From a virus, in the IMG/VR virus record IMGVR_UViG_3300009507_000044, positions 1 through 39,612 of that record: a stretch of 39,612 bases of DNA. One strand, 5' to 3'. The notes beneath the pieces are model-generated. The model did not search any database and was not told the DNA's origin. It worked only from the letters and a program-made list of their open reading frames with translations. Shown here piece after piece: positions 25,026 through 27,029 of this stretch (its first letter is position 1; the number at the start of each line of letters is the position of its first letter). The position numbers and the translations under genes are program-made.

Positions 25026-25045
25026 ACACATTGTGCATAATGTGT
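25026..25045. repeat. 7-bp inverted repeat (hairpin)
   Basis: ACACATT (25026-25032) and AATGTGT (25039-25045) flank a GTGCAT loop. It lies upstream of the tRNA-like element in transcription order. There is no U tract, so it may be a processing or regulatory hairpin. Apart from this and the doubtful 46-residue ORF, I see nothing in 25003-25234. Confidence 0.4.
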
Positions 25046-25062
25046 TTAGGATTGAGTAACTA

Positions 25063-25203
25063 CTATTGTCTTTTATAGTCACTTTCACCTTTGCAGCTTC
25101 TTGTTGTAGAGGCGAAGTATCTGCAGCCTTCTGGTTTAACCCGTCTAGACAACCTCTCTGCTTTAATAGAAAGAGAAGTTTTACAGTTGCTATTGTTTTT
25201 CAT
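25063..25203 (-). CDS. possible small basic Cys-containing protein (46 aa)
   Basis: This ORF (MKNNSNCKTSLSIKAERLSR, then RVKPEGCRYFASTTRSCKGE) is basic with three Cys. Its start is AAAAACAATAG-poor, with no recognisable A-rich leader. It lies downstream of a terminator and upstream of the tRNA-like element. It may be real or chance coding in a non-coding RNA region. Confidence 0.3.
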   Translation of the reverse strand: MKNNSNCKTSLSIKAERLSRRVKPEGCRYFASTTRSCKGESDYKRQ

Positions 25204-25368: not shown

Positions 25369-25561
25369 AATGTGTATCTTGTTTATGTGCAGGATCATCC
25401 ATCATTACAAAAAGCAATGTTACTGATGATACTGCACCTAACAATGACATCCAAAACAATATACCATCCGTTAAGGATAGCCCAAATAAAGAAATTATTC
25501 CTATAAGCAGTACAACTGCCCATAGGATCCAAAATGCTAGTATGTTAAGTATCTTTTTCAT
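25358..25561 (-). CDS. two-helix membrane protein (67 aa)
   Basis: Two strong transmembrane segments are seen: residues 5-27 (ILNILAFWILWAVVLLIGII) and about 32-54 (DGILFWMSLLGAVSSVTLLF). A hydrophilic His/Asp-containing tail follows (DDPAHKQDTHYDR). Size and topology would fit a holin, an immunity or superinfection protein, or another small phage membrane protein. No lysin is visible next to it, so holin is only a possibility. It overlaps both neighbours by 4 and 11 bases. Confidence 0.75.
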   Translation of the reverse strand: MKKILNILAFWILWAVVLLIGIISLFGLSLTDGILFWMSLLGAVSSVTLLFVMMDDPAHKQDTHYDR

Positions 25562-25914
25562 ATCTTATCTTTCATAAATTCATCAATACTTGTATCACCT
25601 AAGTTAAAAGGCTCAACTTCAAAGTTATCATTTATACGATTTTTAAAGTCAAGTAAATCCAATGTACTTTTCTTGTAGTTACGTGGATTAACTTTACCTG
25701 TTGGTTTACTGAACTGATCCTTTTGAATGACAACTTCATCATTAAAAAGTTTATCTTCATCTTCTTGTTTGAATATGGTGAAGAAGTCAATGAAACCTTT
25801 CTTATCTTTAGGAAGTGCATTTAATTGCTCTTCTGTATGAGTATCTAAGAACTGTCTAATTCTTTTGATAAACTCTAATTGTTTTTGGTCGCTTGATGTA
25901 ATTGTAATGCTCAT
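25558..25914 (-). CDS. phage protein of unknown function (118 aa)
   Basis: The open frame extends to 26031, but the first good start is the ATG at 25914 (MSITITSSDQKQLEFIKRIR), preceded by AAACATAAAG. The upstream part of the frame reads through strong inverted repeats and looks non-coding. The protein is charged and helical with an acidic C-terminal end (DTSIDEFMKDKI). It overlaps the membrane-protein gene by 4 bases. Its leader contains several hairpins (25947-25972, 25976-25989, and the rod-like element beyond). Confidence 0.72.
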   Translation of the reverse strand: MSITITSSDQKQLEFIKRIRQFLDTHTEEQLNALPKDKKGFIDFFTIFKQEDEDKLFNDEVVIQKDQFSKPTGKVNPRNYKKSTLDLLDFKNRINDNFEVEPFNLGDTSIDEFMKDKI

Positions 25915-25993
25915 CTTTATGTTTTTTAATGTTAAGTAAAGAGTAACCTCTAAGCTTGCGCTATCTTCGAGGCTTCTTATGTTTATAAGTAAT

Positions 25994-26097
25994 AATAAAG
26001 CTCTCCCCTGATACACTACGTTCCTGAGCATACAATCAACTAAAGTCGACTGTTGATTGTACTCTTGGGTGTATTTAACGGTTCAACGAGCTTTATT
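25994..26097. ncRNA. rod-like inverted-repeat element, probable structured RNA or leader
   Basis: Nested complementary segments fold this into one long rod. AATAAAGCTC (25994-26003) pairs with GAGCTTTATT (26088-26097). ATACAC (26011-26016) pairs with GTGTAT (26069-26074). CCtGAG (26023-26028) pairs with CTCttGG (26062-26068). TACAATCAAC (26031-26040) pairs with GTTGATTGTA (26052-26061). The apical loop is TAAAGTCGACT, itself containing the palindrome AGTCGACT. The strand is undecided. On the minus strand it would be the leader of the gene starting at 25914. The gene-free stretch 25915-26345 holds this element, the direct repeats at 26129-26167, a 10-bp stem at 26203-26245 and the small RNA candidate at 26261-26322. 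Confidence 0.55.
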
Positions 26098-26128
26098 TAA
26101 ATAATAGGTAAGGGTCTATGTTACATAA

Positions 26129-26167
26129 AGACTAATTGCTCTGCATTACTGCATCAGACTAATTGCT
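26129..26167. repeat. 12-bp direct repeat pair inside a closed stem domain
   Basis: AGACTAATTGCT occurs exactly at 26129-26140 and 26156-26167. The spacer between them contains CTGCAT twice. The pair is enclosed by ATAGGTA (26104-26110) and TACCTAT (26193-26199), which are complementary, and follows a hairpin GTCTATG/CATAAAGAC at 26114-26132. It could be a binding-site pair or a structured RNA domain. Confidence 0.6.
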
Positions 26168-26260
26168 TTAATACCTTTTATCACCGAAGTACTACCTATG
26201 TTCTACAGTTTATGTTATACAATCTAATGAATGGTAAATCTGTGGTTACAGTTAACAGTT

Positions 26261-26322
26261 AAAAAGAGATGAGATGTGCCTCCTACGCATACTCGCGATC
26301 TTCGGTGGTATCCCATTTCTGT
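26261..26322 (-). ncRNA. candidate ~60-nt small RNA ending in an intrinsic terminator
   Basis: On the minus strand AGAAATGGGAT (26310-26320) pairs with ATCTCATCTCT (26265-26275), with one mismatch and one G-U pair. Inside, CCaCC pairs with GGaGG, and a CGC/GCG mini-hairpin caps it. The outer stem is followed at once by TTTTT (26261-26265). A perfect TAATTTTG -7 box (26329-26336, minus) lies just upstream, so a transcript would begin at about 26320 and consist almost only of this hairpin. It could alternatively be a second terminator behind the 78-residue gene. Confidence 0.45.
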
Positions 26323-26328
26323 TTAAAA

Positions 26329-26336
26329 CAAAATTA
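26329..26336 (-). promoter_or_regulatory. TAnnTTTG -7 box for the small RNA candidate
   Basis: The minus strand reads TAATTTTG, an exact match to the Bacteroidota -7 consensus, 9 bases before the first paired base of the small RNA candidate. No TTTG -33 box is seen at the usual distance. It overlaps the U tract of the preceding terminator, so chance similarity in a T-rich run is possible. Confidence 0.4.
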
Positions 26337-26362
26337 AAAAAACAATTACAGAGTAAACTCTG
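26334..26362 (-). terminator. intrinsic terminator overlapping the end of the 78-aa gene
   Basis: On the minus strand CAGAG pairs with CTCTG around a TTTA loop (26349-26362), within the last codons of the gene. TAATTGTTTTTTTAA follows. The stop codon lies between stem and U tract. Confidence 0.78.
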
Positions 26363-26582
26363 CAACTGTTTCGTAATTGTTAACTGTAGCTATTACTACA
26401 CCATCGTCAGACACAACATAGTTGTAGTCCTTAATGTTTGTAGCGCCTTGGCTTTTCTTGCCGACAGGTATCGTGCCTGTTTCAGTTTCTGATTTCCAGC
26501 TTAGGAAGTCACCGTTAGGTCCGCTAACTATTGCTACTGATGTTGCGCCTAATTCTTTCAAGTGTGAGATGATTGTGTTCAT
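26346..26582 (-). CDS. small phage protein, first leftward gene after the divergent region (78 aa)
   Basis: This 78-residue protein (MNTIISHLKELGATSVAIVS...) has beta-rich segments (SVAIVSGPNGDFLSW, YNYVVSDDGVVIATVNNYE) and looks like a small compact domain. I do not recognise it. It is a one-gene unit closed by its own terminator, and the first gene leftward of the divergent region. Early-expressed host-takeover genes are often found in this position, which is a suggestion only. Confidence 0.72.
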   Translation of the reverse strand: MNTIISHLKELGATSVAIVSGPNGDFLSWKSETETGTIPVGKKSQGATNIKDYNYVVSDDGVVIATVNNYETVAEFTL

Positions 26583-26699
26583 TGGTTTGAGTTTAAGGGT
26601 GGGTTACTAAATTTCCGTAACATAGTGGGGGTCTTTGTAATAGTTGGTCTACGCGCTCAAAGATTTTCTACAAAAATTTTTTTTTTAGAATTTTATTTT

Positions 26700-26707
26700 T
26701 AACTTTG
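26700..26707 (+). promoter_or_regulatory. possible rightward promoter, TAnnTTTG box
   Basis: TAACTTTG matches the Bacteroidota -7 consensus and is followed within 1 base by the first CCCTAGAGG repeat. A transcript starting here would be untranslated for about 330 bases before the GroES-like gene. The upstream region is an A/T run with no TTTG -33 box, so support is limited. Confidence 0.35.
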
Positions 26708-26824
26708 CCCTAGAGGCACACCAAAAGTGTATCACCCTAGAGGACCGTAAGGGCAGTATAGGGTCAGACGTTGGATTGTAGTTCCTAAATAAGGAATAGA
26801 GTTTTCTCCAATAGCTTCTAAAAG

Positions 26825-26899
26825 AAAGGATATAGCGTTAGTTAGGATAAAATGCACACAGGTACGTGCGGTGAATTAACACCAGTTTTATTATCCTTT
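26825..26899 (+). ncRNA. branched RNA-like element with two competing closing stems
   Basis: Two hairpins lie side by side: GCAC/GTGC with loop ACAGGTAC (26854-26869) and GGTG/CACC with loop AATTAA (26870-26883). They are enclosed by AGGATA (26844-26849, plus AAA/TTT) pairing with TATCCT (26892-26897), giving a three-way junction. A second copy, AAAGGATA (26825-26832), can pair with the same 3' arm TATCCTTT (26892-26899) over 8 bp, so two closing stems compete. That layout resembles a switch or a branched leader RNA. Strand is assumed rightward. Confidence 0.45.
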
Positions 26900-26996
26900 G
26901 GTCTCATTTGAGAAGCACTGCTAAACGTAAAATTCCAATCGAAAAGATCAAATCTCAAGGGGGAACCTATATCTAATTGAAAAATCTTTTAAACAG

Positions 26997-27029
26997 TTTG
27001 GATTTGTAAGAAAATCTTTTATATCTTTG
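26997..27029 (+). promoter_or_regulatory. Bacteroidota-type promoter of the GroES-like operon
   Basis: TTTG at 26997-27000 and TATCTTTG at 27022-27029 match the -33 TTTG and -7 TAnnTTTG boxes, with 21 bases between. Transcription would start near 27035, only about 15 bases before the ATG at 27050. Confidence 0.75.

Follow-up and report, generated by a model that had tools for sequence, protein, structure and literature searches.

Does a long hairpin in a gene-free stretch of a phage genome act as RNA, act as DNA, or represent chance pairing in filler? The hairpin, a 104-nt rod, lies in a marine crAss-like phage fragment of 39.6 kb, the whole stretch of DNA analysed here (hereafter the window). 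Its terminase was ~40% identical to Crassvirales terminases, and portal, major head protein, DNA polymerase, helicases, primase and a GroES-like protein were also encoded. Genes run leftward from ~6 to 26.6 kb, the replication genes among them, and rightward beyond 27.0 kb (terminase, portal and head); GC skew and gene direction flip at 26–27 kb, near the rod. As shown in Table 1, the leftward genes 26346–26582 and 25558–25914 flank the spacer that contains the rod, near the start of the DNA-replication operon. All comparisons with relatives rest on metagenomic contigs, in which gene boundaries are our own codon-score calls and some “spacers” may hide small genes.

Table 1. Positions of the rod, its surroundings and the other elements described in the text (window coordinates unless a locus is named)
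Feature	Position	Strand	Description
Rod	25994..26097	- (strand of presumed transcript)	104 nt, self-folding
Rod, outer stem	25994-26003 / 26088-26097		10 bp, perfect; arms AATAAAGCTC/GAGCTTTATT
Rod, middle stem	26011-26016 / 26069-26074		6 bp; ATACAC / GTGTAT, between outer and inner arms
Rod, fourth stem	around 26026-26028 / 26062-26064		weak; GAG / CTC
Rod, inner stem	26031-26040 / 26052-26061		10 bp, perfect; arms TACAATCAAC/GTTGATTGTA
Rod, apical loop	palindrome at 26044-26051		11 nt; palindrome AGTCGACT
First gene after the rod	25558..25914	-	encodes 118 aa of no known family; L002/L003 have a protein 88% identical
Spacer, rod to start codon	25915..25993	-	small CCTC/GAGG hairpin; AT-rich start region AACATTAAAAAACATAAAGATG
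Promoter-like element	26200..26222	-	TTGTATAACATAAACTGTAGAAC; 3′ half of a conserved element of fixed length; upstream half degenerate
Interval, terminator to promoter-like element	26224..26338	-	hairpin TGGGAT...ATCTCA vs GGGAAA...TTTCCC around CACCGAAGAT...TATGC.TAGG
Intrinsic terminator	26339..26372	-	15-pair stem and T run, after gene 26346-26582
Second, weaker rod (not claimed)	26104..26199		closing stem ATAGGTA/TACCTAT
Conserved non-coding block	26614..27029	+	just before the GroES-like gene
Candidate structured RNA	26766..26990	+	36-pair consensus structure
Bacteroidetes-type promoter	about 26998-27029		TTTGGA...TATATCTTTG-like, after the conserved block
tRNA-like minihelix	24915..24958	-	acceptor stem and T-arm only; AAAGCAT...GCAGGTTCGATTCCTGC...ATGCTTT
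Conserved, probably non-coding stretch	25042..25164	-	AGAGAGGTTGTC...GGCTGCAGATACTTCGCCTCTA...AAAGGTGA
Rod family D	L083:4041-4151, L137:1255-1341, L152:3979-4101, L170:1169-1253		closing stem around an H-type pseudoknot
Rod family B	L150:1941-2003, L153:3252-3320, L163, L166, L144, L146, L148, L149, L155, L162		AAAG(A/G)CT(C/G)A(C/T)(A/G)AA ... GATA ... closing arm; ~60-67 nt

The perfect 10-bp outer and inner arms and the 6-bp pair of the original prediction were all confirmed in the sequence, and the apical loop carried the palindrome that it had described. Four stems had been proposed: those of 10, 6 and 10 bp stood, but the 5-bp stem was weaker and formed only with a bulge or G-U pairs. 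Either strand of this structure-forming sequence folded into a single rod, with an energy modestly below shuffles (z -2.6 on the + strand and -2.9 on the - strand), and folding as DNA gave z -3.3. Many 124-nt windows of the AT-rich sequence and of its shuffles equalled the rod in energy, and fold energy was dropped as a weak measure of its significance. The rarity of the rod is that of its nested perfect arms, not of its energy: a nested perfect 10-bp arm pair within 110 nt occurred once in the window, and when the whole window was shuffled 300 times with dinucleotides preserved it appeared in just two of the shuffles, agreeing with the earlier remark that chance would seldom nest such arms.

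The rod is not an intrinsic terminator, having no GC-rich short-loop stem followed directly by a T run (flanks ATTACTTATAA on the - strand and TAAATAATAG on the + strand); a terminator scan listed the upstream terminator of Table 1 and not the rod. Rfam covariance models at gathering score gave no match in the whole window, and none at E values up to 5 over the rod. The second rod of Table 1 folded at -14 kcal/mol and was lost in a longer fold.

The stretch had been called gene-free, and codon scores confirmed this for 25915–26345, where no frame was gene-like. Taken mechanically, an in-frame ATG at 26031 would make the 25914 gene reach into the rod; translation through the rod from this ATG was rejected on the codon scores and on an in-frame stop just before the 25914 equivalent in L008.

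L008 (same contig as L002, L090 and L175) was the sole relative covering the rod site, and L003, from a second metagenome, was near-identical to it. Although ~86% identical to the window on both flanks, L008 carried between 25935 and 26213 an unrelated sequence with a 49-aa ORF on the same strand. The original prediction had asked whether relatives translate the region: the slot is translated in L008, but from unrelated replacement sequence, and the structure of the rod is not refuted thereby. A covariance model of the rod run over 140 related loci matched only the window itself, and BLAST and scans with the neighbouring genes found no copy of the rod. Viral contigs scanned for the exact outer-arm and inner-arm sequences gave only three unrelated chance loci, and no match to the locus was found in cultured phages by megablast or blastn. 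The rod thus appears to be lineage-specific, as far as the searched collections go.

Ahead of the first gene of the operon, relatives carry a promoter-like element whose length hardly varies (CCCACAATTTGACA, ~25 nt, TATAACA). It was found in about 30 related loci (e.g. L152:3243–3290), and in L083 and L152 it has the textbook form TTGACA-17-TATAAT. The window copy was near-identical to those of L017 and L022 over TTGTATAACATAAACTGTAGAAC, and was not reported by an HMM of the element. Because genes of the related loci commonly start 2–15 nt downstream of the element, very short leaders after it are suggested. In the interval between the terminator and the element, the window and L008 had a hairpin in common, with arms that were apparently compensating; L012, L017 and L022 carried other structured-looking sequences at the equivalent place.

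With the previous gene closed off by the upstream terminator, the leader containing the rod would belong to a transcript of its own. Transcription would proceed on the - strand from the promoter-like element at about 26213–26222, and the rod would form part of the 5′ leader of the leftward operon leading to DNA polymerase, its end 79 nt ahead of the start codon at 25914. The suggestion that the rod is a leader RNA of this gene stands as a putative one: the - strand position after the promoter-like element agrees with it, and so does the tendency of related phages to carry closed rods in the same operon, as described below.

The non-coding slots of several relatives contained segments closed by perfect 9–17 bp stems around large interiors. 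Such closed rods, defined by a closing stem of K or more perfect base pairs, a span of 50–170 nt and a loop of at least 20 nt, were counted in 121 kb of non-redundant spacers of the clade, with five shuffles as controls. At K=10, 48 were observed against 6–16 (about 10) in shuffles, and at K=12, 19 against 0–3 (about 1). Their density per Mb in spacers exceeded that in coding DNA ~3-fold (K=10) to ~7-fold (K=12). They were concentrated in the replication operon, whose 55 kb of spacers contained 41, whereas the structural side had 3 in 26 kb, near the shuffle rate; about one in nine of the replication-operon rods is estimated to be due to chance. Many began only a few bases from a stop codon (16 of the 41 lay no more than 22 nt from a stop) and had at their other end a short A-rich run leading to a start codon. 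In the examined halves of the genomes of cultured crAss-like phages, phi14:2 had three rods with 10-bp stems and crAss001 had one.

The window rod has the shape of this class (a 10-bp outer stem and a 104-nt span) and its location, a non-coding spacer of the replication operon; its membership is inferred from architecture and position. It begins ~116 nt past the promoter-like element, at a greater distance than most sister rods, and 248 nt past the upstream gene; closeness to a promoter element or stop codon is a frequent but not universal trait of the class. Strand asymmetry was considered as proof of RNA and left unused: the sense strand folded better by 31 to 6, but control spacers were similarly biased. 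For the window rod itself, the sense strand folded no better than the antisense.

Some rods recurred among relatives with conserved interiors, and two such families showed covariation, in four to five sequences each. In family D, a closing stem surrounds a pseudoknot core (GTAAAGTGGAG / ACCACATNTAAAAC / TGTAGTAAAC). All 24 pairs formed in every sequence with letters there, nine of them with changes on both sides, and the second helix of the pseudoknot covaried in 5 of 5 pairs; none of 500 shuffles gave pair support as good, and no slid register came close. The exact pattern of this core was not found in bacterial genome contigs. Family A (five sequences) had three double-changed closing pairs, one of them a G-C, G-U, A-U series. 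This covariation belongs to families A and D; no homologue of the window rod was found. Members of a further family, B, were often in tandem with another rod, and judged by eye their closing stem had changes on both sides.

Other candidate RNAs were found near the rod. The block just before the GroES-like gene was highly conserved as non-coding sequence in 86 other loci of the clade and had no significant Rfam match. Within it, an alignment of 20 sequences yielded the consensus structure listed in Table 1, with compensating changes in 12 of its pairs, making this segment a strong candidate for a new structured RNA. On these alignments, its support as an RNA is far better than that of the rod, and it merits a study of its own. 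On the other side of the rod, the tRNA-like minihelix was ~29 nt longer in L008, with a compensating change in the acceptor stem, and was missing from L093. The conserved stretch at 25042–25164 was common to L008, L093 and L094; a small ORF over it in the window was not kept in L094, and the stretch is a candidate RNA.

We favour, with about even confidence, the reading that the rod is a lineage-specific, cis-acting structured RNA of the closed-stem class, placed in a leader or between cistrons and likely to protect or process mRNA. It would be one lineage's example of the marine crAss-like closed-stem rods that lie after this promoter-like element and between genes of this operon. A stem at the 5′ end or between cistrons would protect or separate mRNA segments, by blocking exonuclease or by guiding cleavage. 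Since the class sits at 5′ ends and in stop-start gaps, protection or processing appears to be its most likely role.

The main rival to the cis leader reading is that the rod is a trans-acting small RNA, an accessory cargo of a hypervariable promoter-proximal slot, such as a decoy or antitoxin-mimicking RNA directed against host defence. We consider it unlikely. The cargo following the promoter-like element does vary among relatives (different small ORFs, a tRNA-Met in L094, non-coding stretches and other rods), as accessory early cargo would, and the conserved interior of some sister rods is elaborate, in one case with a covarying pseudoknot. However, the majority of the class is found between co-directional genes, frequently right against a stop codon, suggesting a cis role; on the - strand the window rod has no terminator directly at its end, and no match to known decoy RNA families was found. 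A broader and bolder version, which we hold to be more doubtful, would make the window rod one of an undescribed set of fast-exchanging closed-stem RNA cassettes, some pseudoknotted, that occupy an immediate-early slot in the replication operon of marine crAss-like phages and act in trans on the host; if true, these might be, for example, decoys or mimics against host defences.

That the rod instead arose by chance, or is a neutral hairpin, in filler remaining from the loss or replacement of a small gene seems improbable. Two observations argue against it, namely the scarcity of nested arms in shuffled windows and the strong enrichment of such rods in exactly the replication operon. It would nevertheless fit the ORF at the rod site in L008, the uniqueness of the rod to the window genome, its unexceptional energy and the chance share expected among the operon rods. 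A DNA cruciform for replication or packaging, as also proposed originally, is very improbable: symmetric arms that fold on either strand, a palindromic loop and the nearby switch of gene direction and GC skew are in its favour, but the rod is missing from the closest relative L008 and from all 140 related loci, which makes a conserved cruciform origin unlikely, and the G-U pairs and pseudoknot of sister rods point to RNA.

Taken by itself, the rod is a single unconserved hairpin; the comparison shows a marine crAss-like clade whose replication operon has spacers rich in closed-stem non-coding elements, and the rod looks like a member of a class of phage RNA elements not described before. The set provides concrete elements for tests of phage mRNA processing, early gene control and RNA-based counter-defence. 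The literature searched contained no relevant paper on crAss-like phage non-coding RNA or on hairpins of this kind in phages. Families A and D resemble Rfam-type candidate RNAs in being backed by covariation and a non-coding context. They differ, as does the rod, in matching no Rfam family (for A and D, in the loci carrying them), and the window rod has no homologues from which a model could be built.

In bacterial mRNAs, stabilising 5′ stem-loops and intercistronic REP-like hairpins occur in polycistronic transcripts. The rods are like them in being paired elements that begin a polycistronic transcript or separate its genes, but are unlike them in their long perfect closing stems and large interiors, which in some rods include conserved cores and a pseudoknot. 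In phage T7, RNase III sites are non-coding hairpins between co-directional early genes, and the rod class is alike in consisting of non-coding hairpins among co-directional phage genes. T7 served as the positive control for rods of RNase III type, and its spacers differ in containing none that fits the present definition of a closed rod, even with 9-bp stems; cleavage of the window rod is hypothetical. Among known working systems, the closest analogues of the rod are the T7 RNase III sites and the stabilising 5′ stem-loops.
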